Of a stretch of DNA of 54,734 bases, positions 2,262 to 47,066 are shown piece after piece (position 1 is the first letter of the stretch; every line of letters begins with the position of its first letter). Under the pieces are notes generated by a model that was not told the origin of the DNA, made no database searches, and was given only the letters and a program-made list of their open reading frames with translations. The translations under genes were made by a program, and so were the position numbers. Source of the stretch: Clostridium sp. (lineage in GTDB: Bacteria; Bacillota; Clostridia; Clostridiales; Clostridiaceae); the NCBI GenBank assembly GCA_031292145.1, contig JARLHR010000201.1, positions 1 through 54,734 of the forward strand, read 5' to 3'.

Positions 2262-2348
2262 AATAAAATACTCCTTTCAATTTAGGCATATTCAGGAAAA
2301 TAACAGATTCAAACTTGTTATTTTTTTGAATGTGCATTGGATTAGGCA

Positions 2349-2384: not shown

Positions 2385-2662
2385 TGTTATGGTACCTGAA
2401 AGATTCTCTTTCTAAGGCATGTTTAAGAATAACCAGTTAGTATGCTTGTCTGTTTCATAACAGAAATTACAGCATTGATTAATTATTTCATATGCCTAAT
2501 CAAAAGATTGCTTCTTGGGTGTCATAAGACTTTCCAGAGTTTCGTCAGAATTCGGTCCTTTTGCCTGAGAGTTTGTTGCGGCTTCACCTTCGGCGCTGCT
2601 GTTAGGCATATTCTTCGTTCATATGTTTTATTTGCAGTCTCTCCCAAATTCGTCATACGATC
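2380..2662 (-). promoter_or_regulatory. tandem glycine riboswitch
   Basis: Read on the minus strand, aptamer I (about 2662-2555) shows the family core: GGGAGAGACUGC, GCCGAAGGUGAAGCCGCAA, then ACUCUCAGGCAAAAGGACCG. Aptamer II (about 2548-2380) runs from CUCUGGAAAG through UAUGACACC to CUUUCAGGUACCAUAACAGAG, where CUCUG pairs with CAGAG. Aptamer II looks degenerate: CACCCAAGAAGCAA stands where CACCGAAGGNGCAA is usual. Its P3 loop carries an 89-nt palindromic insert (2412-2500). A terminator follows, then the TRIC/UPF0126 gene. Glycine binding is expected to switch expression on, as in most tandem glycine switches, but the weakened second aptamer could alter this. Confidence 0.85.
2412..2500 (-). 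repeat. palindromic element in the P3 loop of glycine aptamer II
   Basis: The ends, read on the minus strand, are TTAGGCATATGAAATAATTA and GGTTATTCTTAAACATGCCTTAG, which pair with each other. The middle contains a second hairpin (TTTCTGTTATGAAACAGA). The flanks UCUUU and AAAGA close the aptamer P3 stem, so the insert extends an existing hairpin. The termini resemble the TTAGGCACATGAAAG ends of the larger repeats at 16226, 19922 and 30069, and it shares CAGACAAG with two of those. It is either a divergent relative or an independent insert. Confidence 0.5.
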
Positions 2663-16123: not shown

Positions 16124-16165
16124 AATTTTTGCCCCCTATAATTTTAGTTAGATAAATTTATAAAC

Positions 16166-16203
16166 AAAAAATCCTGTCCTCTGCTATATAGAAAGGACAG
16201 GAC
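16166..16203 (-). terminator. T-box terminator of the aminotransferase
   Basis: CCTGTCCT and AGGACAGG pair (16201-16194 with 16180-16173 on the minus strand), followed by a run of T (16171-16166). It competes with the antiterminator that contains GGTGGTACCGC. Confidence 0.85.
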
Positions 16204-16225
16204 TTTATATTCCTGCGGTACCACC

Positions 16226-16391
16226 TTAGGCACAATCAAAGAAATAATAAATCCATCTGCCAGCCTATTTTCCATCATCCTGCGTCAGCAAAATGCAATA
16301 ATAGGCTGGCTATGATAGCATTTTGCTTCCTTGCCTGATGAAAAATAGTCATGTCAGCTTTGGACTTGTTATTTCTTTTCATGTGCCTTAA
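16226..16391 (-). repeat. full-length TTAGGCACA repeat, copy A, inside the T-box leader
   Basis: Minus strand. The ends TTAAGGCACATGAAAAG and CTTTGATTGTGCCTAA pair. The middle stem is UAUUUUUCAUCA with UGAUGGAAAAUA; the inner stem is AGCAAAAUGC with GCAUUUUGCU. Conserved loops are GGCAAGGAAG, GACGCAGGAUGA and the apical CAUAGCCAGCCUAUUA. It occupies the interval between the upstream leader helices and the antiterminator. Confidence 0.8.
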
Positions 16392-16658
16392 TTGGCTAAA
16401 AACGCCCACTCATTAAAAATGCAAACACATTCTGGATTTGTAACGTAATCCAAACGTTATGAATTACTGAGAATCTATAGCATCCTATTCTATAACATTA
16501 AAAACTTAAGTAATAGATATTCTATAAATTCCGTTTACCCATACTCTCAAAGGCTACTTTTACTATAATGCGTTCTGCCAATATTACAGCACAATTGACT
16601 CTCTGTAAGTGCACTTATAGTTTTATTTCCTCATCAACAATTTAATTTATTGTTTTAT

Positions 16659-16687
16659 AATTTACCATCATATGATTTATTTGTCAA
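16659..16687 (-). promoter_or_regulatory. promoter of the aminotransferase T-box leader
   Basis: Minus strand: perfect TTGACA (16687-16682), 17-nt spacer, TAAATT (16664-16659). Confidence 0.7.
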
Positions 16688-16730
16688 ATAATTTTTGAAT
16701 TAATACTATGTTTTTATACAATCATTTTAG

Positions 16731-16871
16731 CAAATTAATAAGGATGACACAAAATCACTAACTTTTTTACCATTTAACTATGCAGATGGACCTATAGGTA
16801 AACCAACATATTATGAAATGAGCAATCTTCCTATAGAGATATCACATTACTATAGAATTAAAATAACTTAA
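16731..16871 (+). pseudogene. short open frame, possible 3' relic of an unknown gene
   Basis: 46 codons between two stops, without a start, reading for example LTFLPFNYADGPIGKPTYY and ending YYRIKIT. The composition looks protein-like, but no family is recognised. It sits between two divergent T-box promoters and may be a gene fossil or chance. Confidence 0.25.
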
Positions 16872-16879
16872 ATTACCTA

Positions 16880-16907
16880 TTGACAAAAGAATTTAACGGT
16901 GTAAAAT
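16880..16907 (+). promoter_or_regulatory. promoter of the ValRS T-box leader
   Basis: TTGACA (16880-16885), 16-nt spacer, TAAAAT (16902-16907). Confidence 0.75.
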
Positions 16908-16909
16908 GT

Positions 16910-17197
16910 GTATTAAAGAAAGATAAAAGCAATGAAAAGGAAGAGTAGGCACTATATGGAAATTAAGAGAGGGAATGCTGGTGGAAATTTCCCGTGAAGT
17001 TAGTGTCGAAGGTAGCCTTTGAGCTTTAAACCGAAAGCTTTGGCAAGTAGGCTTTAACGGAGTCCCACCGTTACAGGGGAGGTAGTATCGGCAAAAATTG
17101 CCCGCACTATACAGAGAGTGTACATTTTTGTACAAACTTAGGTGGTACCACGGAGTTTAACCTTCGTCCTATATTTTAGGACGGAGGTTTATTTTTT
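16910..17197 (+). promoter_or_regulatory. T-box leader (specifier GUA, Val) of the valyl-tRNA synthetase
   Basis: Stem I: lower helix AAAGG/CCUUU, upper helix GGCACU/AGUGUC, apical hairpin AGGGAA/UUUCCC with the loop UGCUGGUGGAAA. The 3' internal loop GAAGGUAG puts GUA (17012-17014) in the specifier position, followed by G. The T-box GGUGGUACCACGG is at 17142-17154, then the terminator CCTTCGTCCT/AGGACGGAGG with a T run to 17197. Uncharged tRNA-Val should stabilise the antiterminator and raise synthetase expression. Confidence 0.9.
17159..17197 (+). terminator. T-box terminator of valS
   Basis: CCTTCGTCCT (17161-17170) pairs with AGGACGGAGG (17178-17187), followed by TTTA and a T-rich run. 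Confidence 0.9.
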
Positions 17198-17285
17198 TCT
17201 AAGTGCGCAATTAGAAAAAATGATTATAAAGAAAAATTTAAATGAGATAATTAATCATGCACAAAATATTTAGGAGGTACTTTTT

Positions 17286-19685
17286 ATGTTAAGTAAAAAA
17301 TATATTTTCAAAGAAACGGAAAGTAAGTATACAGAATTTTGGAAGGAAAATAATATATACGCTTACGACTTCAATAGTAAAAAGGAGGACTTTTCAATAG
17401 ATACACCACCACCAACTATTAGTGGGAGTCTTCATATAGGTCATATTTTCTCATATACTCAAGCAGAAATTATAGCAAGATTTCAAAGAATGCAGGGCAA
17501 AAATGTATTTTATCCTTTTGGCTTTGATGACAATGGTCTTCCAACAGAAAGATTAGTTGAAAAGGAAGAAAATATAAGAGCAGCAGATCTTCCTAGATCA
17601 GAATTTATAAACAATTGTTTAACTACGACTAAAAAGTATGAAGATGAGTTTAAGAATCTTTGGCAATCTATGGGCTTTAGTATTGATTGGAATCTTCAAT
17701 ATGAAACCATTAATCCAAAAGTACAAAAAATTTCTCAAAAGTCCTTTTTAGATATGGCAAAGGCAGGAAAAGCTTATACTAAGGATTCACCAGTTTTATG
17801 GTGCACAACCTGCCAGACTTCAATTGCACAAGCAGAACTTGAAAGTACTGAGAAGGAAACTACTTTTAATTACATTCCATTTATTGTAGATGGAGAACAG
17901 CTTATGGTAGCAACTACAAGGCCTGAATTATTATTTGGTTGTGTTTGTCTATTTATAAATCCCGAAGATAGTAGATTTATAAAATATATAGGCAAGAAGG
18001 CAATTGTTCCGTTGTATAATTTTAAGATTCCAATTTTAGCAGATGAAAAAGTAAGCATGGAAAAGGGAACAGGAATTGTTATGTGTGCGACCTTTGGAGA
18101 TACTACAGATCTTGAATGGTATGAAAAATACGATTTTCCTTATAAACGTATAATTGAAAGTAATGGAAGAATTGCTGAAGAAGTTCCTTATATTAATGGC
18201 TTGAAGATAACAGCTGCTAGGGAAAAAATAATTGAATTATTAAAAGAAAATAATCTTTTAATTAAAAGTGAAGCAATAAATCACACCGTATCAATTCATG
18301 AGAGATGTGGAAAGCCGATAGAGATAATTCCTTCTAAACAGTGGTATATTGATATTTTAAGTGAAAAAGAAAGATATATTAAAGCGGCAGATGAAATAAA
18401 TTGGTATCCAGCTAGTATGAAGACTAGATACATTACATGGGTAGAAAATTTAAAATGGGACTGGTGTATTTCAAGGCAGAGATATTTTGGAATTCCATTT
18501 CCATTATGGTATTGCAATAAATGTGGAAAGCCAAAATTTGCAAAGGAAGAAGAACTTCCGATAAATCCAATGGAAACAAATCCAGAAGAGCCATGTAGCT
18601 GTGGCAGTCATGAGTTTATGCCAGAAACTGCAGTATTTGATACTTGGGGAACATCATCTTTATCTCCTTTAATTAATAGTAAATGGAATACTGATAATGA
18701 TTTGACAGATAAGCTTATGCCAATGGGAATGAGAACTCAAGCTCATGAGATAATAAGAACCTGGGCATTTTACACCATAGTAAAAAACTTGTTCCATACA
18801 GGAAAAATTCCATGGAAAGATATTATGATATGTGGTTTCGTTATGGCTAAGAAAGGTGAGAAAATAAGTAAATCTAAGAACAATGCATCTTCTTCACCCA
18901 AAGATCTGATAGAAAGAAATTCGGCAGATGCCTTAAGGTACTGGGCAGCTAATTCAAAGCTTGGAACAGATACCATGTTCTCTGAGCAGGACCTCAAAAT
19001 TTCTAAAAGATTTTTAACTAAGCTTTGGAATGCAGCTAATTTTTGTATTATGCAGCTTGAAGATTTTGATGGAGCGGAGCCTGATGAGCTTATGCCTATA
19101 GATGAGTGGATTACAAAGAAAATTGAGATTTTAGAAAATTCAGCAAAAGATAACTTAAATAAATATGAAATAGGTCTTGCAAAACATGATATAGATGAAT
19201 TTTTTTGGAATGATTTTTGTGATAACTATCTTGAGATAGTAAAGGATAGACTATACAAACCAGAAATTCATGGTATGGAGGAAAGAAAGTCAGCACAATG
19301 TACTTTGTATAAAATACTTCTTGAAATTTTAAAACTATATGCAATTTATGTTCCATATATAACTGAGGAAATTTATCAATGTTATTTTAGGAAATTTGAG
19401 AAGAATATATCAATTCATACTCTTCAATGGGATGTAACGGAGTCAGAAATAACTGAAGAAATAATAGATTTTGGTAAAAATGTTAAAGCTGTAATAAGCG
19501 AAGTAAGAAAATATAAATCACAAAGAAATCTATCTATGAAAGAACCTTTAAGCAGCATTAAAATAACATTATATGAGAGCCAAATAGAAAACATGGAAAA
19601 GACAATAAAAGATCTAAAAGCCTGTAGCTGGGCAATGGATTTACAATTAATCTCAGGGGATGAATTAAGTGTTGAAATAAGTTAA
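17286..19685 (+). CDS. valS: valyl-tRNA synthetase, archaeal/short type
   Basis: A 799-residue class I synthetase charging tRNA-Val. The HIGH motif is at residues 50-53 within SGSLHIGHIF and the KMSKS equivalent is KISKSK near residue 524. The editing (CP1) domain contains VATTRPELLFGCV. Zinc-type cysteine pairs occur (CTTCQTS, CNKCGKPKF, CSCG), as does the WNAANF anticodon-domain start. At 799 residues it is shorter than the usual 880-residue bacterial ValRS and lacks its long C-terminal coiled coil; sequence and size fit the archaeal-like ValRS found as a sole or second copy in some clostridia. AGGAGG precedes the ATG. The T-box leader reads a Val codon, which independently supports the assignment. 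Confidence 0.9.
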   Translation: MLSKKYIFKETESKYTEFWKENNIYAYDFNSKKEDFSIDTPPPTISGSLHIGHIFSYTQAEIIARFQRMQGKNVFYPFGFDDNGLPTERLVEKEENIRAADLPRSEFINNCLTTTKKYEDEFKNLWQSMGFSIDWNLQYETINPKVQKISQKSFLDMAKAGKAYTKDSPVLWCTTCQTSIAQAELESTEKETTFNYIPFIVDGEQLMVATTRPELLFGCVCLFINPEDSRFIKYIGKKAIVPLYNFKIPILADEKVSMEKGTGIVMCATFGDTTDLEWYEKYDFPYKRIIESNGRIAEEVPYINGLKITAAREKIIELLKENNLLIKSEAINHTVSIHERCGKPIEIIPSKQWYIDILSEKERYIKAADEINWYPASMKTRYITWVENLKWDWCISRQRYFGIPFPLWYCNKCGKPKFAKEEELPINPMETNPEEPCSCGSHEFMPETAVFDTWGTSSLSPLINSKWNTDNDLTDKLMPMGMRTQAHEIIRTWAFYTIVKNLFHTGKIPWKDIMICGFVMAKKGEKISKSKNNASSSPKDLIERNSADALRYWAANSKLGTDTMFSEQDLKISKRFLTKLWNAANFCIMQLEDFDGAEPDELMPIDEWITKKIEILENSAKDNLNKYEIGLAKHDIDEFFWNDFCDNYLEIVKDRLYKPEIHGMEERKSAQCTLYKILLEILKLYAIYVPYITEEIYQCYFRKFEKNISIHTLQWDVTESEITEEIIDFGKNVKAVISEVRKYKSQRNLSMKEPLSSIKITLYESQIENMEKTIKDLKACSWAMDLQLISGDELSVEIS

Positions 19686-19921
19686 GTATATAGGAAGGAA
19701 ATAATAATTTAATAATTCTATGAATACTTGTACAATCGATTGGTAAGTGTTACTACGTGGTAGAATCTACATTAATTAGTATGGCCATATAATAGACATG
19801 CACATACAATTAACAGCTGAAATATTATCACTATTATTATGAATAAAGGTTAACAAAATAGTTTAATAAATATAATGTTTGGTATAGTTCGTTTCCATTG
19901 ATTATACCTTTATATTTTCAC

Positions 19922-20086
19922 TAAGGCACATGAAAGAAAATAACAAGCCCAAAATGCCATGATTATTTTTCATCAGACAAGAAAGCAGATTGGTCTCATA
20001 GCCAGCCTATTAGGGCAATCTGCTGACGCAGTATGATGGGAAATAGGCTTGGCAGATGGACTTGTTATTTTTTTGATTGTGACTAG
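19922..20086 (+). repeat. full-length TTAGGCACA repeat, copy B
   Basis: Ends TAAGGCACATGAAAGAAAA and TTTTTTTGATTGTGACTAG; the right tip has mutated from TGCC. Middle stem UAUUUUUCAUCA/UGAUGGGAAAUA, inner stem AGCAGAUUG/CAAUCUGCU, loops GACAAGAAAG, GACGCAGUAUGA and CUCAUAGCCAGCCUAUUAG. It lies in the 475-nt gap between valS and the convergent YhhN gene. The rest of that gap (19686-19921) shows no gene or clear signal. Confidence 0.85.
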
Positions 20087-20105
20087 TCCGCTGAATAAAA
20101 TTATG

Positions 20106-20147
20106 AATCACTTGCGTTGTAATAACAAAATAGCAAGTGATTTTTAT
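20106..20147 (+). terminator. hairpin terminator downstream of copy B
   Basis: AATCACTTGC (20106-20115) pairs with GCAAGTGATT (20133-20142), followed by a T-rich stretch. It may serve both converging units. Confidence 0.6.
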
Positions 20148-20160
20148 TATTATATTAATA

Positions 20161-20817
20161 CTATAATTTATATTTTGGAGGAATTATTATTAGAGCATCT
20201 TCATTAATAATTACGGCTAAAAGAGTCCATCCAGGAATATATGCAGCCCATATTATATTTTGAAGCCAAGGTATGAATTGTTTGGAATAAGTTGGATGAA
20301 AGAAAGAAAATGCAACGCCTATATCGCAGATAAACATTAGAATGCTTGAAACGGCAATTAATTTAGATATTTTCCAAGTGAAATAGTTTCTGAAAAGTGT
20401 GCAGATTCCAGTCCAAGTCATATAACATAATACCATAAAAAATATTAGAGAACCTATAAACATAAATCCATATACATATGGCTTCAAAGAGAAAAATACA
20501 TATAAAAAAATAATTGCCATGGGAATTCCAGCAATTATTTCCCCTTTGCCAATTTTGAAATTCTTTTGATAAGCAATAATCAAACAAATATATGCAAAAA
20601 GAAAACCAGCAATTACAAGAAAAATGAAAGAGAGAGCCATAATTTTTTGATCATGAAATTTTTTCTTTATAATCATTGAAGATAAAAAAAGTGTGATCAT
20701 AGTAGTGTATTTAAGGTATAGCACCACATTTTCATTAGGATATATATGGTCAAAAATAAGTATTACAAATGTTAGAGGCAGATAAATAACCAATAAGCTC
20801 TTCTGCGTATTGTTCAT
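20161..20817 (-). CDS. YhhN/TMEM86 family membrane protein
   Basis: A 218-residue protein with about eight hydrophobic helices. The C-terminal signature region FTWKISKLIAVSSILMFICD followed by AAYIPGWTLLAVII matches the YhhN family, whose eukaryotic member TMEM86 is a lysoplasmalogenase. Clostridia make plasmalogens, so a lipid role is plausible but unproven here. The start ATG has AAAGGAG upstream (about 20829). A 9-bp-arm dyad lies 26-45 nt before the start and may be an operator. Confidence 0.8.
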   Translation of the reverse strand: MNNTQKSLLVIYLPLTFVILIFDHIYPNENVVLYLKYTTMITLFLSSMIIKKKFHDQKIMALSFIFLVIAGFLFAYICLIIAYQKNFKIGKGEIIAGIPMAIIFLYVFFSLKPYVYGFMFIGSLIFFMVLCYMTWTGICTLFRNYFTWKISKLIAVSSILMFICDIGVAFSFFHPTYSKQFIPWLQNIIWAAYIPGWTLLAVIINEDALIIIPPKYKL

Positions 20818-20842
20818 TTTAAAAACTCCTTTAAAATTAGAT

Positions 20843-20862
20843 TTAATGTATACATATACATT
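20843..20862. promoter_or_regulatory. operator-like dyad upstream of yhhN
   Basis: TAATGTATA-CA-TATACATTA: nine-base perfect arms with a two-base centre. AGATTTAATGTATA recurs at about 21048-21061 before the next gene pair, so both divergent units might share a regulator. The interval 20863-21126 otherwise shows no gene. Confidence 0.35.
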
Positions 20863-21126
20863 AATATGAATTGTAATAAACTTTATTATGCTATAGTATT
20901 ATTTCCTTATTTTACAAAAATATGTTGTAAAAGAATAAGGAACATTTACTAAAAATTTAAAAGTGTTAAATTAGTTAAGGAAATTAGTTATTATTTAAAA
21001 AAAGAAAAAGCCCAAATACTTAAAATGATATTGGAAATGGTGTATGGAGATTTAATGTATATTGTAAACCAGAATCCTTTGTAGTATAATTATTCCAGTT
21101 TTATCATATGAGGAGGATATGAATAG

Positions 21127-21351
21127 ATGGGAAAAGTAAGCGTTGGTTGTCCTAAATGTGGAAGCTTAAATGTACAAGTAGTAAGTGATGTTAAAGAATC
21201 AATTAAAGGTTTTGGAGCAGGTAAAGGATGCTTAGGATATATTTGTTTTGGCCCTATAGGTCTTCTGTGTGGATTAATTGGAATGGGAAAAGGAAAGGCT
21301 AAAACCAATACATATAGAGTTTGTGCAAATTGTGGTGCAAGGTTTAAGTAA
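21127..21351 (+). CDS. small zinc-ribbon membrane-associated protein
   Basis: 74 residues. Cysteine pairs CPKCG (residues 8-12) and CANCG (near 68-72) frame a glycine-rich hydrophobic hairpin (GCLGYICFGPIGLLCGLIGM). The two CxxC knuckles can form one zinc ribbon, with the middle inserted in a membrane or packed as a hairpin. A GAGGAGG site precedes the ATG. Four nt downstream starts a DUF2085 gene, so the two form an operon. Function unknown. Confidence 0.75.
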   Translation: MGKVSVGCPKCGSLNVQVVSDVKESIKGFGAGKGCLGYICFGPIGLLCGLIGMGKGKAKTNTYRVCANCGARFK

Positions 21352-21355
21352 TGGA

Positions 21356-21700
21356 ATGGATAAAAAAACAAAAATATGGATTTCTTTAATGAAAATTGGA
21401 GCAGTTAGCTGTCATCAAATTTACGAGAGAAGTTTTAATTTTAGGGGATATCAGTTTCCGGTATGTGCAAGATGTACAGGCATCCTTTTGGGGAATATAA
21501 TTGGAATATTTTTATGGGTTTTGCAATTTAAAATTAGTTTGAAAATAAGTGTATCATTGATTTTTATAATGGTAGTGGATGGATTGTTACAGTTAATTCA
21601 CATAAAGAATTCTAATAATATTAGACGAGTAATAACTGGATTTTTAGCTGGTATAGGGTATATTTTTACATTAGTAAATATAATAGTATATTTAAAATAA
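21356..21700 (+). CDS. DUF2085 membrane protein
   Basis: 115 residues from ATG 21356, 4 nt after the stop of the zinc-ribbon gene; the longer frame beginning at 21278 lies inside that gene and is not the likely start. GAVSCHQIYERSFNFRGYQF followed by PVCARCTGILLGNIIG is the DUF2085 signature: a conserved CHQ and a CxRCxG pair that may bind metal at the membrane surface. Three hydrophobic helices follow. Tight coupling to a zinc-ribbon protein suggests a joint metal or membrane role. Confidence 0.8.
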   Translation: MDKKTKIWISLMKIGAVSCHQIYERSFNFRGYQFPVCARCTGILLGNIIGIFLWVLQFKISLKISVSLIFIMVVDGLLQLIHIKNSNNIRRVITGFLAGIGYIFTLVNIIVYLK

Positions 21701-21709
21701 ACATCTACA

Positions 21710-21737
21710 ATTTAGATGTTTGTTTTTGAGATATAGA
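21710..21737 (+). terminator. terminator after DUF2085 gene
   Basis: AACATCTA (21710-21717) pairs with TAGATGTT (21723-21730), followed by TGTTTTT. Confidence 0.65.
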
Positions 21738-21791
21738 TTTTGGATGTTTAACAATAAGAAAGATTGATTATCAAAGGAAGGCAGGATACGT

Positions 21792-21821
21792 ATGATAACG
21801 TACTTATATTATGAGAGCTGA
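21792..21821 (+). CDS. nine-codon leader ORF overlapping the WYL regulator start
   Basis: AAGGAAGGCAGG precedes ATG 21792, encoding MITYLYYES, and the TGA (21819-21821) lies 8 nt beyond the regulator ATG (21811). The regulator has no ribosome site of its own, so ribosomes terminating here could reinitiate on it. Confidence 0.35.
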   Translation: MITYLYYES

Positions 21822-22734
21822 TAGATTTTTATCAATTTTAATAATAATATCTCAAAAGGGTTTGGTAACAGCAAAGGAATTGGCTGATCATTTTGAAGTA
21901 TCTTTAAGAACTATATATCGAGATATAGAAAAAATATGTGAAGCGGGAGTTCCTATAGGTGCCATTGGAGGTAAGGGCGGTGGTTATTATATTATGGAAA
22001 AATATAATATAAATAATCTGTTTTTTAATAAAAAAGAGATTGAACCTCTGCTTTCTTTAATCGATAGTTTAAAGTGTATATTTGGGAATAGTAAGCAGTT
22101 CAATGACATAGTGCTTAAGTTTGAAACCTTATATAAAAGGGAGCATAACGAGTATGACAAGCTTAATATAGATATGTCTCACTTCAGCATGAAACAGGAA
22201 CTTAGGGAATATTTGCTTCTAGTAGATAGAGAAATTGAAAATAATAGAATATTGGAATTTGAATACATCAATAGAAAAATGGAATATTCTCAAAGAATAG
22301 TCGAGCCAATTCAGATAGAATTTACGGATGGACAGTGGTATATTATAGGCTTTTGCAGAATAAGAAAAGATTACAGAAGATTTAAATTTGTAAGAATAAG
22401 AAATATTGAGCTAGGTGAAAGTTTTGTAAAGAGGAATATTTCACAAGATGAAATAGAAAAAATATTTAAGGAAAGTTATAAAAAGAACAGTATATCAGCT
22501 ACATTAAAATTTTCTAGTGAAATAGGTAAGCAACTAAGTGAGTATTTTTCAAAGGATAAAATTAAACATTTAGACAATGGAACATATATGGTTGAAGGTA
22601 TTTTCCCCGATGATGAAGGCTTAAAAAAATTTATTTTAGGTTTTGGTGTACATTGTGAAGTCATAGCTCCAACTAAATTAAGAAAAGAAATGCTGGAATA
22701 CATAAAAAATCTATATTGTAAATACAATGACTGA
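21811..22734 (+). CDS. YafY/DeoR-type HTH-WYL transcriptional regulator
   Basis: 307 residues. The N-terminal winged helix (ADRFLSILIIISQKGLVTAK, then ELADHFEVSLRTIYRDIEKI) is followed by a linker and a WYL domain from about residue 135 (ILEFEYINRKMEYSQRIVEP, then WYIIGFCRIRKDYRRFKFVR) and a C-terminal WCX extension. WYL proteins sense nucleotides or other ligands and often regulate stress or metabolic genes. An in-frame stop upstream fixes ATG 21811 as the first possible start. It is followed by a terminator and a DUF2785 gene that could be its target. Confidence 0.85.
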   Translation: MRADRFLSILIIISQKGLVTAKELADHFEVSLRTIYRDIEKICEAGVPIGAIGGKGGGYYIMEKYNINNLFFNKKEIEPLLSLIDSLKCIFGNSKQFNDIVLKFETLYKREHNEYDKLNIDMSHFSMKQELREYLLLVDREIENNRILEFEYINRKMEYSQRIVEPIQIEFTDGQWYIIGFCRIRKDYRRFKFVRIRNIELGESFVKRNISQDEIEKIFKESYKKNSISATLKFSSEIGKQLSEYFSKDKIKHLDNGTYMVEGIFPDDEGLKKFILGFGVHCEVIAPTKLRKEMLEYIKNLYCKYND

Positions 22735-22760
22735 CATATAGGTGTCAGTCATTGTGTTTT
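22725..22760 (+). terminator. strong terminator overlapping the WYL gene stop
   Basis: CAATGACTGACA (22725-22736) pairs perfectly with TGTCAGTCATTG (22743-22754), then TGTTTT. The 5' arm includes the stop codon of the WYL gene. Confidence 0.85.
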
Positions 22761-22800
22761 ATAATGGACAAAAAGAACTTATAAGAAAGTGAGAAAAAAT

Positions 22801-23628
22801 ATGAAATCTCAGGAGAATATATTAAAAGATAAATTAATTATGATTAAGAACAACAATTATTTATTAGAAAAAGGAGAAAATTATTTTACTTTTGCGTTAG
22901 AGATGATGAAGAATATAGGCTCACTTGATCCAATATTTAGAGATGAATTAATATATGCAATTTTATGTAAATGGTGTTCAAATAGTATATTTACTATTGA
23001 ACAGCTTAAAAATTTATTAAACATTAGCTTAGACGATGATCATCTTTTTTATAAACTATATGAGGCAGATCAAGATGCTGTTTTTAAAAGAACATTCTCG
23101 GCATTAGTTATAGCTGTTATTATATACGAACATAGAAAAGAAAGCTTTCTATCAGAAAAAGAATTATATGAAATAAAAGGCAAGCTTATAGAGTATATGC
23201 GTAAAGAACAAGATGTTAGAGGATATATTGAAGTAAAAGGCTGGGCTCACTCGGCAGCACACACAGCAGATGCTTTAGATGAATTAGTACAATGCGGTTG
23301 CTTGAATAAAATTGATTTGATTGATATATTGAATTCCATAAGAGAAAAGGCATGCATAGGATATTATGTTTATGTTGATGAAGAAAGTGAAAGAATGGTT
23401 ACAGTAGTTGAAAATTCATTTAATAGAAGGATACTTAGTGATTCGGAAATAATAGAATGGATGCAAGGCTTTAAGCTTAAAAATTCAAAATGGAGCTATA
23501 TTGATAATTTTCATTTAAAGGTTAATATAAAAGGATTTTTAAGAAGCTTATATTTTAGATTATTAGATCAAGAGAATTCAAAGGTTATTATTGAAGAAAT
23601 TAAAAAAATACTTAAGGATCTAAAATAG
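22801..23628 (+). CDS. DUF2785 domain protein
   Basis: 275 residues from ATG 22801; a GTG 12 nt upstream is the alternative start. Predicted mostly helical, HEAT-like. The segment GYIEVKGWAHSAAHTADALD (around residue 150) is the recognisable DUF2785 motif with conserved His/Asp residues. No enzymatic role is established for the family. It follows the WYL regulator by 66 nt with a terminator between, so it is probably driven by its own promoter. Confidence 0.75.
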   Translation: MKSQENILKDKLIMIKNNNYLLEKGENYFTFALEMMKNIGSLDPIFRDELIYAILCKWCSNSIFTIEQLKNLLNISLDDDHLFYKLYEADQDAVFKRTFSALVIAVIIYEHRKESFLSEKELYEIKGKLIEYMRKEQDVRGYIEVKGWAHSAAHTADALDELVQCGCLNKIDLIDILNSIREKACIGYYVYVDEESERMVTVVENSFNRRILSDSEIIEWMQGFKLKNSKWSYIDNFHLKVNIKGFLRSLYFRLLDQENSKVIIEEIKKILKDLK

Positions 23629-23651
23629 ATTAAAGAAAGAAGGTCATATAT

Positions 23652-23768
23652 TTTCTAGGGTTCCGCAGATTATACTGGCGGGTCCGAGAGAAAGCGCACA
23701 ATTTATTGTGTACACCGAAGGATAAAAGCCTGGGAGATATTATTATAATATTTCCATAGGCTTTTTTA
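23652..23768 (+). promoter_or_regulatory. guanidine-I (ykkC) riboswitch with terminator, no intact downstream gene
   Basis: Core elements in order: CTAGGGTTCCGC, CTGGCGGGTCCGAGAG, GTACACCGAAGGATAAAAGCC, TGGGAGA. These match the guanidine-I class. The terminator AGCCTGGGAGATATT...ATATTTCCATAGGCT with six T follows (23727-23767). Such switches normally control Gdx/SugE guanidine exporters or guanidine carboxylase genes. Here the next DNA is an IS-like relic (23794-24079), then a broken ACT-domain gene, so the switch appears orphaned. Confidence 0.85.
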
Positions 23769-23793
23769 TTATGTGCTTTAGCGTTAAAAGAAA

Positions 23794-24079
23794 ACCCCCT
23801 GCTATGCGGGGGGTGAGCAAGTGGTTATACCGTTAAAAAACTGTGAGTATTCTCTAAAAAATATTTTTACCACAAATATTGTGTTACCACTATGCTAATA
23901 TTGGTAAGTGGAAATTGTAAGTTACTATAAAATTTAGACTTTACGACTACATTTAAAATATGGAATAGCCTCACAATTAAAAAATATATAACAAGTCTAA
24001 CAGCGAGAAAAGACTGTATTATATATTTTTTAGCCTTACAGGCGCAGAGCAAGCCACCAGTTTTACTGGTGGTCCTGAC
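23794..24079 (+). mobile_element. non-autonomous IS200/IS605-like element (relic)
   Basis: The left end is a GC-rich hairpin, CCCCCTGCTATGCGGGGGG, and the right end a hairpin, CCACCAGTTTTACTGGTGG followed by TCCTGAC. The 286 nt contain no TnpA or TnpB frame and no terminal inverted repeats. Subterminal imperfect palindromes without inverted ends are the signature of IS200/IS605 elements and their internally deleted derivatives. Exact ends need comparison with full copies. Confidence 0.5.
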
Positions 24080-24136
24080 TTTTTTGTTAAATCTTTGAAA
24101 GAGTTATTAGTTATAAAAGAAAGGATGAAAGAAAAT

Positions 24137-24532
24137 ATGTCAGAAAAAATATTAACAATGAAATTACTAAAAGAAAAATTTGGAGTCTGTAGATTATCCC
24201 AAAATGAATCAATACCTGAATGGATAAAAAATGATGAGTTTTTTTCTATAACAAAAACATTAGATGAATTATCAGTGGTATGTTCTGAAAATAGTATTCC
24301 CAAGGAGATAAAATGTGAAAAAGAATGGAGGATGTTAAAGATTCTAGGGCCACTGGATTTTTAGCTAATAGGTATTCTTTCTTCAATCAGTACTATATTA
24401 GCACAAAAGTCAATAAGCATATTTACTATTTCTACATATGATACTGACTATATTCTTGTTAAACAAATGGATAGATATGCTGCGATAGAAGCACTTGGTA
24501 ATGGAAATTTTGAAATTATAAGTGACATATAG
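24137..24532 (+). pseudogene. ACT/CASTOR-like domain protein with in-frame TAG
   Basis: 131 residues in one frame, interrupted by TAG 24362-24364 (codon 76) between KILGPLDF and LIGILSSISTILAQKSISIF. The pattern matches small CASTOR/ACT3-type proteins of two ACT halves, which bind amino acids; LIGILSSI...SIFTISTYDTDYILVK is the second ACT. The upstream half (KEKFGVCRLSQNESIPEW) is intact. It begins 57 nt after an IS-like relic. It is unclear whether the upstream guanidine riboswitch ever controlled it. Confidence 0.65.
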
Positions 24533-24729
24533 AAATTATAGGAAATCATTCGGTGCAGCATAAATCCATGCCCACATTTACATCAGAATCTGCATTCAAT
24601 GCTGAACTTGTGGGCGTAGAAGATGCTGTAAATGGCATTTTAGGATGTAAAATGTCAAAGTATTTTAGGCCGCCAGAAGGTACTTTTAGTGAATTAATAC
24701 ATAGAATAACGACTTTTTATATATTGTAA
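24532..24729 (+). pseudogene. fragment of a polysaccharide (CE4/PdaA-like) deacetylase
   Basis: 65 codons without a start, running directly on from the ACT pseudogene. EIIGNHSVQHKSMPTFTSES holds the zinc-binding HSxxH motif and KYFRPPEGTFSELIHR the RPP motif of NodB/CE4 deacetylases, spaced as in PdaA-type peptidoglycan deacetylases. The catalytic TFDD N-terminal part and the C-terminal third are missing. Confidence 0.7.
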
Positions 24730-24736
24730 GTTAGTA

Positions 24737-25054
24737 TTATGATATTTCCGCTTCTCCATCTCCTATCAATACAAGTTTATATCCAGGTTGTAGAGGGACT
24801 AAATTATATTTTTGAGATTGTGGCTTTAAACGTATACCTTGTAGGGGTGTCGCTTTAGAGTCAAAAATAAGTATATAAATACGTTCATTAAATGAATTGT
24901 TTTTTATAGTATAAGTAGTGTTTGGCAATAGATTAATATCACCTGCTTTATAAAAGCCTTTTCTGAGAATTTGAGCACTTGCAAAAGATGGCGGTATAAT
25001 CATATTAAAAGATAAGATCAAAAAACATAAGAATATCATAATTTTTCTTCCCAA
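24737..25054 (-). CDS. small secreted protein, paralogue 1
   Basis: 105 residues from TTG 25054, preceded by GGGAGG at a 6-nt spacing; an ATG 39 nt upstream lacks a ribosome site. The signal peptide is MIFLCFLILSFNMIIPPSFA followed by SAQ (likely cleavage A-S-A/Q). The mature part, about 70 residues, reads KGFYKAGDINLLPNTTYTIK and LVPLQPGYKLVLIGDGEAEI: a small beta-rich domain. It shares the layout GxY-AxDxNLxxNxTxTIxNNS and LxPGYxLxxxxxGExxI with the next gene. Unknown function; an exported or wall-associated product. Confidence 0.65.
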   Translation of the reverse strand: MGRKIMIFLCFLILSFNMIIPPSFASAQILRKGFYKAGDINLLPNTTYTIKNNSFNERIYILIFDSKATPLQGIRLKPQSQKYNLVPLQPGYKLVLIGDGEAEIS

Positions 25055-25114
25055 AATATTGCCTCCCTTCTGCTCAGTGTTTTTAAATAACATAATTAAA
25101 AATTATTTAAAGTT

Positions 25115-25432
25115 TTAATTTATGGTTACCTCTCCATTTGTAACAATCAACAATTGGTATCCGGGTTCAAGTGGTGATAAAATATATTTTTCTGATTCAG
25201 GGTTTAATTGCATAAGTTGTTGAGCAATTTGATTAGAATCAAAAATCATCATAAATGCATATTCAGTAGTAGAATTATTCTGAATTGTATGCGTACTATT
25301 GAGGGATAGATTTAAGTCATTTGCGCTATATAATCCCTCCCTTAAGCTTTTGGGCTGAGCTATGGTTGGAATTGCAAGCATATCTAATAACATATATATG
25401 AAAAATAAGAAGATAAAAAATAATCTTTTCAT
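25115..25432 (-). CDS. small secreted protein, paralogue 2
   Basis: 105 residues with AAAGGCGG before ATG 25432. The signal peptide is LFFIFLFFIYMLLDMLAIPT, then IAQ. The mature domain is REGLYSANDLNLSLNSTHTI and LSPLEPGYQLLIVTNGEVTI, clearly homologous to the downstream copy 60 nt away. The pair arose by tandem duplication and is likely one transcription unit, with this gene first. No family name is recognised. Confidence 0.7.
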   Translation of the reverse strand: MKRLFFIFLFFIYMLLDMLAIPTIAQPKSLREGLYSANDLNLSLNSTHTIQNNSTTEYAFMMIFDSNQIAQQLMQLNPESEKYILSPLEPGYQLLIVTNGEVTIN

Positions 25433-25684
25433 TAAAATAACCGCCTTTCAGATTTAGGTTATGCAAAAAATAAGATGTTATACTCAATTGGTTTTAAAGT
25501 AGATATTATACATTTCTATATTGATATTTAGTCACGAAATTAAAGTGTTTACATACAGTACCTATAATAAGCCTTCATTAAAAATGTTACTTTTTAGAAC
25601 TATATTAACAAAAGATTAATATCTTTGACAAACAACTGACAAAAATCAGTATTAATATAGTTAATAGAAAGGGTGTTTGATATC

Positions 25685-25945
25685 ATGGTAAAAGAAAATG
25701 AAAAATTAGAAATTAGAAATACAATAACTAAAGAAGATAAAAGGATATTAACTAAAGCGTTAAATGGAATAAAAGGATGGAATTTTAACCCTATAGCTGT
25801 AATTACTAATGATATGGAAGACTATTATTTTATATGCAAAGTAAAGACAATCATAGAAAATTTTCAAATGACGATGGCAAGGATATATATTAAAGTTCAA
25901 GAAGGAAATAAACCAAGGTTATTAGCTATAGAAGAAATTGTATAG
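25685..25945 (+). CDS. small hypothetical protein
   Basis: 86 residues from ATG 25685 with GAAAGGGTG upstream; an in-frame GTG at 25673 abuts that site and is less likely. It reads KRILTKALNGIKGWNFNPIA, then YYFICKVKTIIENFQMTMAR and IYIKVQEG: an alpha/beta domain without a signal peptide. Not recognised. It is followed by a strong terminator at 26111. The gap 25946-26110 shows no gene; the 25433-25672 gap holds divergent promoters that I cannot pin down. Confidence 0.55.
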   Translation: MVKENEKLEIRNTITKEDKRILTKALNGIKGWNFNPIAVITNDMEDYYFICKVKTIIENFQMTMARIYIKVQEGNKPRLLAIEEIV

Positions 25946-26110
25946 TAACATACTTATATATAATAATTATACTGTAAATACAATAATATGTTAAAATATA
26001 TTGAAAAATAAAATATAACAAATTATAATATTAACAAGATTAGTTGAGAGTAATTGATGTTTTGTTTTTGCAAGGCATAGATTAGATAATTTTATTAAAT
26101 GAAGGCTATG

Positions 26111-26158
26111 GAGTCTAATTTTTATACTTTAAAAAGTATATGAATTAGACTCTTTTTT
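26111..26158 (+). terminator. strong terminator upstream of the AnfO-like gene
   Basis: GAGTCTAATT (26111-26120) pairs with AATTAGACTC (26143-26152), with inner TATACTT/AAGTATA, then six T. Confidence 0.9.
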
Positions 26159-26245
26159 AATCAGCAAAATGAAATAATTCTAAATAGGAGCATGGCAAAA
26201 CACTTTTGTTTTAGAAAAACTCATTGATAAATTAAGGAGGTATAT

Positions 26246-26890
26246 ATGCTTAAGGAAATTGCAGTATATGTAAATAGTTTGGGGAAAGTTGCAGATTTAA
26301 ATGAAGCTGGAACCATAAAAATTTTTTCAAAAGATAAGGATAAGTGGATGCTTATAAGAGAGTTATTATTTAAATTTCATAGCATAGAAAGAAAAAATGA
26401 TATAAGATTAGACACCATTAATATAGCAGAGTCTTTGGGGAGTTGTAAAATTTTTGTCGCACAAGGGTTGCCAGATTTAGTATTTACAATGCTTGATAGT
26501 ATGGGTGTTAGTATATGGAAAATGGATGGAGATTTAAGTGAAATTATTGAATATGTTTTAGAAAAAGAAGAAGAGGAAGCAGAAGAAGTTAAACTTATTA
26601 ATGATTCAATGTCCAATAAGAAAAGACAAATCACAGAGCCAGTTGAGATTGGCAATAATGGCTATTATATTTTAAATCTAAAGGAATTACAAAAACATAA
26701 TACCGGTATTACATCTAAGCAAGCATTGAAACCATTCTTGAAAAATGTAAATTTCCATGAATTAATAGTAACATGTAGTCATATTCCACGCTGGTTAGAG
26801 GATGAATTAGAAAATTTAAATTTAAATTTTCGATTTTTAAAAACTTGGCAAGAAGATTATATAATAATAATTAAGAACAAACTAATATAA
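26246..26890 (+). CDS. AnfO-family (Fe-only nitrogenase accessory-like) protein
   Basis: 214 residues after AAGGAGG. KEIAVYVNSLGKVADLNEAG, then SLGSCKIFVAQGLPDLVFTM and LDSMGVSIWKMDGDLSEIIE match the N-terminal half of AnfO proteins (NifX/NafY-like fold). The C-terminal part SKQALKPFLKNVNFHELIVT, CSHIPRWLEDELENL is the second conserved AnfO block. AnfO accompanies alternative nitrogenase in some bacteria, but no nitrogenase genes are in this window, so here it may serve another Fe-S or cofactor role. No cysteine cluster for a cofactor is present apart from single Cys residues. Confidence 0.65.
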   Translation: MLKEIAVYVNSLGKVADLNEAGTIKIFSKDKDKWMLIRELLFKFHSIERKNDIRLDTINIAESLGSCKIFVAQGLPDLVFTMLDSMGVSIWKMDGDLSEIIEYVLEKEEEEAEEVKLINDSMSNKKRQITEPVEIGNNGYYILNLKELQKHNTGITSKQALKPFLKNVNFHELIVTCSHIPRWLEDELENLNLNFRFLKTWQEDYIIIIKNKLI

Positions 26891-26988
26891 ATTAAAAAGA
26901 AATATAATGTTTATGAAGAAAATAATTTTAATGAAGAACTAAAGTCAACTCTTGATGTATTGAAAAAAAGAGTAAGGGAGGATCGGGT

Positions 26989-28539
26989 ATGGAATTTATA
27001 CAGGATAATTATAATGATAAGATGACTGTTGAATCTTTTTCGAAAATGATTTCTGAAAAGTGGAACGTTGCTGGTGATATAATAAGAAATTATATATTTT
27101 CAAGCATAAGTCTTAGCTTGACTAGAAGTGATGAAATGAAAAAAGATATTGATAAAATATATGATAGTGATAAGTCAAGATATTATAATGCGGTTATAAA
27201 TTCTACTTGTAATGATCATATTATCATAATGCAGGGCACTCTAGAACAAGAAATATATGCAAGAAGAGTACTGGGGATGCTTTTAGAAGCTGAGCTTGAT
27301 AATAGTATAAGAAGTAAAATTATTAAGTTGCTTAGAAAATATTATCCTATTATATATAATTCAGTAAAAAAACATGATAAGGAAAAACTTAAAAACAAAT
27401 ATATAAAAATGGATATAGCTGATAGAAATGTAGAAGCAAAATTTGATGCAGCTATATATCTATATTTCACTGTATACTCTTCATCAGAAAAAGTGGATCA
27501 AGGTTTTATTATTTCTATTTTAAATGATATTGAAGACTTTGAATTTGGAAATTTAATAAATCAAAACGCTGAAAGTGAAGTGCAACAGTATAAGAATGAA
27601 ATAAAGGAAATAAAAACATTAATAAAAAGAAATTTTGGGAGAGTTCTTAATTACAAAGATATCTTAAAACATAATAATAAATATATTAGAAAATGGGGTG
27701 AATATTTAGAAGACTTGTTTGTAAGTAATAAACTTAATATAAATCATATTTTTCATGACTCTGAATTTATTAATATTGATAAAATAATTTTATCCTATGT
27801 TAGAACTGAAAAAAATAATAACAATTTAGAATTAATAATATCAAATGTGATTAATGGAGTATTTATACAATCGCTTATAAATGAATATAAAAATACGAGA
27901 TCAATATATTTTGAGAATAGTGGAGAAGTATTACATTGCGAATTAAATTCTTTAGAAGAAAAATATAACTATATTGAAAATGAAAATAAAAACTTAAAAG
28001 CTAAGGTTGAAAATTTAAATAAAGAGAAATTAATGTATGATAGGAATTTGCTCAATGAATTAAGTAATCAAAATAGGGTTCATCAACAAGAAATGAAAGC
28101 TATGGAAGATAAAATTAGAGATCTTGAAGGTAAACTAAAGGATGAAACAAATCTAAGACTCGAAATAGAATCTTTAAGAGAATATGAACTTAATTTAAAA
28201 AATAATTACCAGAGTGAATGTTTGGATGTTAACTTACAAAAATATATTACAAATAGAAAAATTATAATAATTGGTGGCGATAAAGAATGGAGAAGAAAAT
28301 TTAGAATAAAGTATCCGCAAATCAGAACATTAAATGGTTTTACCGATAATTTTGATATAAGTATTTTAATTAATTGTGATTACATTTTTTTTTATACAAA
28401 ATATATGAATCATTCCACGTTTCATAAAACTATGAATTTTATTAAATTAAATAAATGTAAATTCGGATATATTGGGAAAACTAATATAGAACTTGTTGAA
28501 GAAGAAATTGTAGACCAAATTAGTAAATATGAAGGATAA
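26989..28539 (+). CDS. large coiled-coil protein with DUF2325-like C-terminus
   Basis: 516 residues, AAGGGAGG upstream of ATG 26989. The N-terminal 300 residues are mostly helical without a recognised domain. A heptad-rich coiled coil spans about 320-405 (EEKYNYIENENKNLKAKVEN onward). The C-terminal 95 residues begin KIIIIGGDKEWRRKFRIKYP and end FGYIGKTNIELVEEE: a Rossmann-like DUF2325-type module that in other proteins follows coiled coils. Predicted cytosolic; function unknown. The 98 nt before it read on in the frame of the upstream AnfO-like gene, but no gene can be supported there. Confidence 0.6.
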   Translation: MEFIQDNYNDKMTVESFSKMISEKWNVAGDIIRNYIFSSISLSLTRSDEMKKDIDKIYDSDKSRYYNAVINSTCNDHIIIMQGTLEQEIYARRVLGMLLEAELDNSIRSKIIKLLRKYYPIIYNSVKKHDKEKLKNKYIKMDIADRNVEAKFDAAIYLYFTVYSSSEKVDQGFIISILNDIEDFEFGNLINQNAESEVQQYKNEIKEIKTLIKRNFGRVLNYKDILKHNNKYIRKWGEYLEDLFVSNKLNINHIFHDSEFINIDKIILSYVRTEKNNNNLELIISNVINGVFIQSLINEYKNTRSIYFENSGEVLHCELNSLEEKYNYIENENKNLKAKVENLNKEKLMYDRNLLNELSNQNRVHQQEMKAMEDKIRDLEGKLKDETNLRLEIESLREYELNLKNNYQSECLDVNLQKYITNRKIIIIGGDKEWRRKFRIKYPQIRTLNGFTDNFDISILINCDYIFFYTKYMNHSTFHKTMNFIKLNKCKFGYIGKTNIELVEEEIVDQISKYEG

Positions 28540-28602
28540 AATTATTGAAAGTAGAAATGTGAAAAAGTCTCTAATAAAAAATTTCTTGGTTAAAATTTAA
28601 GT

Positions 28603-29030
28603 TTGAGGTACAATATTACAAGGTTAAATAATACAGTTATTATGATTTATGGAGAACATTGTGGTGTTCATAAATTCTATGAAAAAGATATAGAAAACGC
28701 TCCTTTAGAAGGAGATTGGTGGAAAGATAATCATAAAAAGATACCATATATTATTTACTCTAAGTACTTAGAACCAGAAGTAATATCAAAAGTAGGTGGT
28801 CAATCAGATTTCTTGCCAACAATTTCATATTTACTTGGAATTGACAGAAGCGAATTTGAAAATAGTTCTATGGGAAGAGTGTTAGTAAATACAGAAAGGG
28901 AGCTGCTATTTTAAATGATGGTGAAATTATGGGGACTCCAAAGGATACTAAAGAACTTAATCATTTAAAAGATACATTTGAAATTGCTAATTCTATAATT
29001 TCAAAAAATTATTTTGAGAATAAAAAGTAA
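28603..29030 (+). pseudogene. C-terminal remnant of an LTA synthase-like sulfatase-fold enzyme
   Basis: The first frame gives NNTVIMIYGEHCGVHKFYEK, DWWKDNHKKIPYIIYSKYLE and GGQSDFLPTISYLLGIDRSE, the C-terminal third of lipoteichoic acid synthases (the GDHNG/GGQxDxxPT region). The frame is lost near 28900 and continues in another frame as KGAAILNDGEIMGTPKDTKE to NYFENKK. The membrane helices and catalytic threonine domain are absent. It is dead: truncated and frameshifted. Confidence 0.75.
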
Positions 29031-29054
29031 AGATCACAATAAATGTTTTAAAGG

Positions 29055-29102
29055 GAAGGTATTTAAGAATGTAAAAAAACATATTAAATACCTTCTTTTT
29101 TT
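29055..29102 (+). terminator. terminator after the LTA synthase relic
   Basis: GAAGGTATTTAA (29055-29066) pairs perfectly with TTAAATACCTTC (29084-29095), followed by seven T. It may be the original gene's terminator. Confidence 0.9.
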
Positions 29103-29275
29103 GTTAAATTAAGTTTAAAATATGATATAATACTATTTGAAATTTAATGGAAATAATTTATAGTAAAATAAATAAATTATAATTAGTTATTGAAGTTATA
29201 TAAAATGGAAAAGATAAATATTATAATTTGCACTACTATAATAATACCAATAATGGAGTAAAGTGAGGATGAAAA

Positions 29276-30016
29276 ATGGAGACTAATCAAAATTTACAAG
29301 AGAAAATCAATAATTTTCTAAAAGAAAATAAAATAAATGTAACTGGTGGGATAATAACTAATGAAAAACAATTATCATCAGTTTTAAATGATCTTGCTAT
29401 GACTGATTTTAAAAAGGGTAAAGTAGAGAAAGCTTTATATTTTACAGAAAAAGCAATAGAATTTAATGAAGAAAATTATTATTCATATTTTATAAAAGGT
29501 TTAGCATATAGGCAATTAAATAAAACAAAGGAATCAATTGAAGCCTTTGAAGTATATTGTAATAAAACCGATGATGCGTTAACACATATATACATAGGTC
29601 TTTCATATGCAGAATTAAATGATGTAGAAAATGCTTTAAGTCATCTTAGAAAAGGTGAGAAGAATATTGAAAATGTGGAAAAAGAAGAACATAAATATTT
29701 ACTTTGTGTAGCATATGAATGTATAGGAAATATCTACTTAAATAAAGAAAATATAGTAGAATTTACTGAAGGAGATAAGTATAGTATCAATTACAAAAGT
29801 GCAGTAAAATATTATAAGATGTCACTTAAAATTAATAGAAAGAACTGTGATTTAATCAATAAATTGGCGGCATGTTATTATCATCTAGAAGATATTAATA
29901 AGGCATTATATTGTTATCAACAAGCAGCTAAAATTTCACCCGATAATACTATGTATTTAGAAGCAATAAAGGAGATGAAGGAAGCGGGGGCTAAATCAGA
30001 ACCAGCAGGATTTTAG
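29276..30016 (+). CDS. tetratricopeptide-repeat protein
   Basis: 246 residues; GTGAGGATGAAAA precedes ATG 29276. TPR units are visible at about 50-83 (DFKKGKVEKALYFTEKAIEF), 84-115 (GLAYRQLNKTKESIEAFEVY), 117-150 (GLSYAELNDVENALSHLRKG) and 200-235 (LAACYYHLEDINKALYCYQQ, then AAKISPDN). No signal peptide or extra catalytic domain, so a cytosolic scaffold or partner-binding protein is expected. It is monocistronic, with repeat copy C downstream. Confidence 0.8.
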   Translation: METNQNLQEKINNFLKENKINVTGGIITNEKQLSSVLNDLAMTDFKKGKVEKALYFTEKAIEFNEENYYSYFIKGLAYRQLNKTKESIEAFEVYCNKTDDALTHIYIGLSYAELNDVENALSHLRKGEKNIENVEKEEHKYLLCVAYECIGNIYLNKENIVEFTEGDKYSINYKSAVKYYKMSLKINRKNCDLINKLAACYYHLEDINKALYCYQQAAKISPDNTMYLEAIKEMKEAGAKSEPAGF

Positions 30017-30068
30017 TTTCTAAATTATATTACGAAAAAGTATTAAATTAATTCATCAAAAATTTAAA

Positions 30069-30233
30069 TTAGGCACATGAAAGAAAATAATAGACCAAAG
30101 ATGCGACGTATATTTCGTGTCAGACAAGGAAGTAAATTCTGCTCATAGTGGGCCTATTAGTAGAATTTACCAACGCAGTATGACGCGAAATAGACGAGCA
30201 TACTGGTCTATTATTTTCTTGATTGTGCCTTAG
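30069..30233 (+). repeat. full-length TTAGGCACA repeat, copy C
   Basis: Ends TTAGGCACATGAAAGAAAA and TTTTCTTGATTGTGCCTTAG. Outer-stem tip AAUAGACC/GGUCUAUU, middle stem UAUAUUUCGUGUCA/UGACGCGAAAUA and inner stem AGUAAAUUCU/AGAAUUUAC all differ from copies A and B yet still pair. Loops GACAAGGAAG, AACGCAGUAUGA and CUCAUAGUGGGCCUAUUAG are conserved. The remaining 30234-30404 is A/T-rich without clear features. Confidence 0.85.
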
Positions 30234-42268: not shown

Positions 42269-42312
42269 TTAAGGCAAATTAAGGCAAATTCAATTCTTTC
42301 ATGTGCCTTAAT
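42269..42312 (-). repeat. TTAGGCACA repeat, internally deleted copy E
   Basis: Minus strand: TTAAGGCACATGAAAGAA joins directly to TTGAATTTGCCTTAA, and TTTGCCTTAA is repeated once more. Only the two ends remain; all internal stems are lost. Confidence 0.65.
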
Positions 42313-47011: not shown

Positions 47012-47066
47012 TAGGCAAATGAAAGAAAATAAAAGACAAGTCTATTATTTTCTTGATTGTGCCTTA
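47012..47066 (+). repeat. TTAGGCACA repeat, 55-nt short copy D
   Basis: TAGGCAAATGAAAGAAAATA joins through AAAGACAAGTCTA to TTATTTTCTTGATTGTGCCTTA. The outer stem alone is kept (AAAGAAAATAA and TTATTTTCTT, GAC/GTC at the tip); about 110 internal nt are gone. It ends 8 nt before the -35 of the AspRS leader promoter. Confidence 0.75.

Follow-up and report, generated by a model that had tools for sequence, protein, structure and literature searches.

The three dispersed repeats of the Clostridium sp. contig JARLHR010000201.1 (assembly GCA_031292145.1; the whole 54,734-nucleotide stretch is referred to as the window), designated copies A, B, and C, are copies of a non-coding mobile DNA element, a miniature inverted-repeat transposable element (MITE). 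The identification follows from the terminal inverted repeats, a 3-bp target duplication, the copy number, and an exact empty site in relatives. Typically, the element reads GGCACA...TGTGCC, is approximately 160 nt long, and lies between equal TTA or TAA triplets; its terminal inverted repeats of ~26 bp, its target duplication, and its short length without a transposase gene are the features by which bacterial MITEs are recognized, and the TTA/TAA duplication is also that of IS5/PIF-Harbinger-type elements. None of the three copies contains an open reading frame (ORF) of at least 70 aa. An initial annotation, made from the sequence alone, had placed the copies where both the sequence and the covariance-model matches put them, and the common ends that it described belong to real family copies, albeit with slight differences (copy B terminates in TGTGAC followed by TAG, and ends vary slightly among copies generally). 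Its contrast between a selected fold and "just mobile-element ends", in which the repeats were held to be more than the latter, is at best partly supported, given the ends, duplication, copy number, and empty site.

The flanking triplets were counted over distinct copies of 145-175 nt with good ends and away from locus edges. Equal 3-bp flanks surround 78 of 87 copies in the own genome (40 TTA/TTA, 37 TAA/TAA, and 1 CTA/CTA, with the remaining 9 unequal) and 51 of 59 copies in relatives. At the site of copy A (site A), the filled arrangement CAAT-TAA-element-TAA-GGTGG occurs in the own genome and in the relatives G027 and G065, and the empty arrangement is CAAT-TAG-GGTGG in G051 and CAAT-TAA-GGTGG in G060; the comparison is that of an insertion with a 3-bp duplication. 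Judged by eye, the own leader sequence around this site is closer to that of G051, and those of G027 and G065 are closer to that of G060, which implies either two insertions at site A or two losses.

The initial annotation had proposed a covariance model and a search of related Clostridium genomes, and these reveal a family far exceeding three copies. A model built from 34 full-length copies of the own genome (alignment A1) has at least 150 matches in that genome (6.34 Mb), where a blastn search with copy B returned 81 rows, including partial and opposite-strand rows, of which 40 candidates were scored. A terminal-repeat pattern allowing up to 2 mismatches yielded 773 matches versus 4 for a reversed control. 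Carriers amount to 19 of 59 Clostridium genomes (the own genome included), with counts running from 6 to at least 49, and the other 40 have no match at the filter applied. Among the pattern loci listed from named genomes, the model supports 18 of 80, located in Clostridium uliginosum, Clostridium sp. LS, C. chromiireducens, C. neonatale, C. beijerinckii, and one Bacillota metagenome-assembled genome (BP5.bin74); the remaining 62 lack a model match at E 0.01 and probably fit the pattern by chance. Copy B has no blastn match at E 1e-5 among 72,556 plasmid and 50,697 phage records. In IMG/VR, two phage-like contigs of identical local sequence (L328 and L329) hold a copy (L328:309-467, same in L329) with TAA on both sides, whose start lies inside a short open frame. 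A known RNA class was ruled out, in line with the initial annotation, which did not recognize one: none of the three copies is overlapped by an Rfam hit reaching the gathering score, and for copy B nothing down to E = 10 comes close to that score. No description of this element in Clostridium was found among the papers listed from the open-access literature. The family is thus a large one with no earlier description found, and the kind of element is ordinary.

Each copy forms a long hairpin whose fold is better than all of 200 dinucleotide shuffles (z of -8.0, -8.3, and -12.7 for copies A, B, and C). The covarying stems noticed in the initial annotation were borne out in alignment A1, where 25 of 59 pairs show changes on both sides versus a shuffle expectation of 9.5; none of 500 shuffles is as high, and none attains any of five covariation measures. 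Related sequences may exceed such shuffles, and sliding the pairing partner, a control that preserves relatedness, leaves only 3 to 9 pairs with double changes. Covariation is present in all four helices; 96.9% of cells are paired, and the outer helices of 7 and 17 pairs are paired at 96.2% and 97.2%. Within the inner loop, a tandem G.A/A.G is retained between covarying helices, and four mismatches are kept in most of 144 copies (alignment columns 62.116, G.A, 121; 63.115, A.G, 133; 55.123, G.A, 134; 77.101, C.U, 136). The earlier description of the unpaired parts as nearly fixed applies to most positions of the motifs it named, whereas mean conservation across 146 copies is lower at inner unpaired columns (0.72) than at inner paired ones (0.80). 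In 140 of 146 copies, the model strand folds more stably than the complementary one (mean -69.6 versus -58.1 kcal/mol), a count that, owing to shared ancestry, is nearer to one observation than to 146. RNAalifold gave only a weak forward fold for the 146-copy alignment (40 pairs, with an unfavourable covariation term of +5.64) and none for the reverse strand, and the structural conclusions rest on A1 rather than on that result. Two candidate motifs were dropped: a pseudoknot of the hairpin tip (GCCUAUU) with the 3' arm (AAUAGGC), spotted visually in copies A and B, is broken in the second copy of L024, and a K-turn was set aside by column reasoning, since no 3-nt bulge accompanies the G.A pairs on the strand where one would be needed. 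A nested hairpin of ~40-80 nt (ACATTAGAAAAGAGCAGC...CTTTTCT) occupies one point of the 3' arm in L022-L028, L039, and L040 (partly visible in L025 and L026, at contig ends), and L035 carries roughly its reverse complement in the mirror-image region of the 5' arm.

The outer and inner stems differ in how their pairs changed along a tree of full-length copies. The tree held 146 copies, then 144 after removal of two seemingly reversed rows (L239, and L241, which has mixed features); the removal shifts little (G.U to A.C changes on inner-stem internal branches go from 25:3 to 27:3, and the Fisher value for common versus once-seen variants from 0.003 to 0.006). On internal branches, the inner stems show 38 double changes to Watson-Crick pairs, 27 to G.U, and 3 to A.C (p 8e-6), and the outer stem shows 13 double changes, 3 G.U, and 2 A.C, without wobble bias. 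Grouped by frequency, variant types present in at least 5 copies comprise 15 G.U versus 1 A.C, and once-seen types comprise 13 versus 12 (Fisher 0.006). These patterns suggest that the outer stem reflects terminal-repeat symmetry and that the inner stems reflect selection on the folding of a strand with one polarity, mainly in multiplying lineages, with the separation incomplete because on terminal branches both inner and outer stems have more G.U than A.C (outer 44 versus 25, p 0.03). Since the outer stem is the inverted repeat itself, its covariation needs no RNA; the inner-stem G.U excess and the tandem G.A mismatches fixed between covarying helices suggest selection on a folded strand, whether RNA or single-stranded DNA, in lineages that spread. 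The earlier claim of selection for such a fold is partly supported, by the inner stems, and the part of it drawn from the outer stem is explicable by inverted-repeat symmetry.

Full-length copies avoid coding sequence and have no consistent orientation. None of 45 places in the own genome (those scoring at least 66.9 bits, one strand each, apart from one 69-nt place of 68.5 bits) lies inside an ORF of at least 80 aa, though such ORFs cover 81% of the sequence. In 1.23 Mb of own DNA there are 123 stretches bounded by terminal repeats; ORFs enclose 7 of them, and no enclosed stretch is 150-170 nt long. The 45 places are sense to both neighbouring genes in 17 cases, antisense to both in 13, and mixed in 15; in the complete relative G030, 16 of 26 are antisense to both and 3 are sense to both. 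A role as part of the sense-strand mRNA was dropped because of this mixed orientation. With respect to replication, 70 of 92 copies in G030 have the model strand opposite the leading strand (p 9e-7; the 92 listed matches of at least 100 bits, from a total of 143, with GC skew and gene strand checked in 20 regions), a bias that may mean that the more stable hairpin is avoided on the template of the lagging strand. No replication-strand bias is seen for 30 copies in the own genome (16 versus 14), nor for 37 copies in G051 and 121 in G043, assuming an origin at the record start; since the bias is present in G030 only, strand-biased insertion was not adopted as a general rule.

The best explanation of these observations is a non-autonomous, hairpin-forming MITE family of the genus Clostridium, and this explanation is considered likely. 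Copies would move as double-stranded DNA, in trans, by a DDE transposase that recognizes the repeats at their ends and inserts at T(A/T)A, and pairing of the outer stem would be kept since the same transposase must read both ends. Less certainly, the inner hairpin, including the G.A and C.U mismatches fixed in it, may be kept because one strand, either a transcript or single-stranded DNA, must fold for spread or tolerance, and most individual copies may decay afterwards. A more specific version, in which spread depends on a protein or the transposition machinery binding the folded strand (a transcript or a displaced single strand) with its tandem G.A loop, and the inner pairing is kept by selection acting on mobility rather than on each insertion, is unlikely.

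Several results weigh against the explanation as a whole. Comparison of 84 filled sites with relatives' loci (not whole genomes) gave an empty site at site A only, in G051 and G060. The wobble signal is not clean with respect to neutral decay of copies: inner stems on terminal branches have 79 G.U versus 34 A.C, the same directions of change at unpaired columns (146 copies) give 22 versus 13 on internal and 40 versus 28 on terminal branches, and part of the G.U bias may accordingly be mutational. With mismatch positions included, the inner-stem figure on internal branches becomes 29 G.U versus 4 A.C, and with the inner stems taken alone, common variants are 12:1 and once-seen ones 6:5 (Fisher 0.06). 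Additionally, no transposase with the family's ends was found in a search that covered PF01609, PF13586, and PF13612, and long end pairs in 1.23 of 6.34 Mb. The own genome has six PF01609 matches, one PF13586 match that coincides with one of them, and none to PF13612, and no convincing pair of family ends surrounds any of the six PF01609 loci (L218 and L219 lie near contig edges). Near matches to the family ends, with 3 and 4 mismatches, surround the ORF of L217. That locus holds an IS-like unit (L217:1022-2656) whose ORF matches PF01609; its true ends appear to be marked by an 18-bp terminal inverted repeat together with an 8-bp direct repeat TCTATATG, and they differ from those of the family. 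An autonomous element was also sought among seven long end pairs (0.6-6 kb) in the 1.23 Mb and rejected, as the ten ORFs within or overlapping them belong to ordinary Pfam families with no transposase; two ORFs tested from long end pairs in 30 loci of four relatives were both ordinary.

Covariation could also arise at the level of double-stranded DNA. In an imperfect palindrome, transposase binding would account for the outer symmetry and arm-to-arm correction (hairpin-templated copying) for the inner covariation, with mismatches remaining because perfect long palindromes are unstable and with no role for RNA or a single strand. That such a route exists is evident from L038:201-361 (minus strand), a visible case of palindrome correction in which one arm has lost its internal loop to a mirror image of the other arm. 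The short forms that have lost their interior (47 of the 123 bounded stretches are <100 nt and hold terminal repeats only, a few of them chance-like) fit hairpin instability, their junctions varying as expected of deletion across a hairpin. The lack of wobble bias in the outer stem on internal branches also favours a DNA-level route. (The short forms were rejected as independent elements, being heterogeneous and having equal flanks in 17 of 47.) Correction should, however, erase the G.A and C.U mismatches, which are kept in 121-136 of 144 copies while adjacent pairs covary; a motif test for arm mirroring flagged 2 of 146 copies, of which L239 is merely a reversed copy, leaving L038; and the inner-stem preference for G.U over A.C is not predicted by double-stranded DNA. 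A purely DNA-level origin is thus possible, if rather unlikely.

Alternatively, the repeats could form a family of structured non-coding RNAs, with every copy serving the host and transposition spreading the copies incidentally. The covariation, the retained internal mismatches, and the greater stability of one strand (shared by ancestry, hence not independent among copies) would all be expected of such an RNA, but the inconsistent orientation to neighbouring genes, the absence of a wobble preference among once-seen variants, and the uneven distribution among genomes speak against it and make it very unlikely. A single-strand element (HUH/RAYT or IS200/IS605-like), which would transpose at replication forks in folded single-stranded form, in the manner proposed for REPINs, is the most improbable of the possibilities considered. 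REPINs are described as hairpin units with compensatory changes (PMC3116915), a likeness that would favour it. The strand bias in G030 points the same way, and the lack of such bias in the own genome, and in G051 and G043 if their origins are at the record start, points the other way. A 3-bp target duplication with an empty site would also be unexpected for such elements. Of the three outcomes that the initial annotation had named as adverse to its reading, two are absent (there is no Rfam match, and covariation exceeds chance) and the third, a MITE derived from an insertion sequence (IS), is realized in so far as the element is a MITE.

REPIN/RAYT and IS200/IS605 elements are not known to make a target duplication, Correia elements make a 2-bp TA duplication, and Tourist/PIF-Harbinger elements, like some members of the IS5 family, duplicate TTA or TAA and have ends starting with GG. 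The T(A/T)A rule likens the Clostridium family to Tourist/PIF-Harbinger and IS5-type transposases by analogy only; the 3-bp target duplication is common to both (PMC2213677), and the difference is that no related transposase was tied to the Clostridium ends in a partial search. The repeat bcr1 of the Bacillus cereus group is similar in being 147-167 nt long, intergenic, MITE-like, present in up to 130 copies per genome, and conserved in fold (PMC2267715, PMC3446304, PMC6542083). However, bcr1 belongs to another genus and its mobility is tied to a TTTAT motif; identity with bcr1 was ruled out because the insertion flanks here are TTA or TAA. RUP and BOX of Streptococcus pneumoniae are short repeats whose terminal repeats pair in the fold and which have target duplications. 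RUP ends resemble IS630-Spn1, whereas no matching IS was found for the Clostridium family in a partial search; BOX is modular and already reported as a composite with T-boxes. REPINs with RAYT transposases are hairpin units of selection in which compensatory changes are common (PMC3116915), and they differ in their REP ends and RAYT mobilization from the Clostridium family, which has long terminal inverted repeats and a target duplication that rules out identity with REPINs. Given the compensatory changes of REPINs and the BOX/T-box composite, neither feature is new by itself. Correia (NEMIS) elements of Neisseria, another host, are also MITEs, and they give rise to folded transcripts that RNase III can cleave (PMC10969869, PMC2649163).

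Table 1. Copies, derivatives, and adjoining features of the element family in the window.
Feature	Position	Strand	Remarks
Copy A, element GGCACA...TGTGCC, 159 nt	16229..16387	-	Within T-box leader, immediately 5' of GGTGGTACCGC antiterminator; covariance-model match 16228-16388
TAA, 5'-side target duplication of copy A	16388..16390		From empty sites in two relatives
TAA, 3'-side target duplication of copy A	16226..16228		From sequence and comparison with relatives
T-box leader of aminotransferase gene, split by copy A	16160..16631 (approximate limits)	-	
Aminotransferase class I/II gene, downstream of copy A	14939..16123	-	PF00155, 5e-42
Copy B, element, 159 nt	19925..20083	+	Between leucyl-tRNA synthetase-like gene and convergent ORF; covariance-model match 19924-20084
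Copy B flanks	TAA 19922-19924; TAG 20084-20086		
Copy C, element, 158 nt	30072..30229	+	Covariance-model match 30071-30230
Copy C flanks	TTA 30069-30071; TTA 30230-30232		
Short derivative, interior lost, terminal repeats only	47013..47064	+	40.9 bits
Short derivative, terminal repeats only	2284..2337	+	30.9 bits
Terminal-repeat remnant (TAAGGCACATGAAAGAA...)	42280..42311 (approximate limits)	-	Inverted repeat; missed by covariance model

The T-box leader that contains copy A was assigned by alignment with an uninterrupted relative (L256, 97.7 bits to the Rfam T-box), there being no Rfam match to it in the window itself. Rfam recognizes the T-box in the uninterrupted G051 leader (the same 97.7 bits) and at none of the corresponding sites in G060, G027, G065, or the own genome; since it also misses the uninterrupted G060 leader, the missing match in the own genome is not attributable to the insertion alone. 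The T-box core is alignable and mostly conserved in all five leaders, and copy A is probably tolerated there by folding independently between the aptamer part and the antiterminator. Elsewhere in the window, a separate T-box leader precedes the leucyl-tRNA synthetase-like gene (16923-17174, plus strand), and there are a guanidine-I riboswitch (23644-23738, plus strand), a glycine riboswitch (2543-2656, minus strand), and, on the minus strand, two adjacent ORFs of similar size (50248-51528 and 51607-52881) with a common 153-nt stretch at 71% identity.

The family explains hundreds of terminal-repeat hairpins in Clostridium that could be mistaken for RNA genes or regulators, and the analysis supplies for them the extent of the element, its target rule, and an example of an empty site, with one instance interrupting a T-box leader. 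Comparing the outer with the inner stems offers a means of telling terminal-repeat symmetry from folded-strand selection in small mobile elements.

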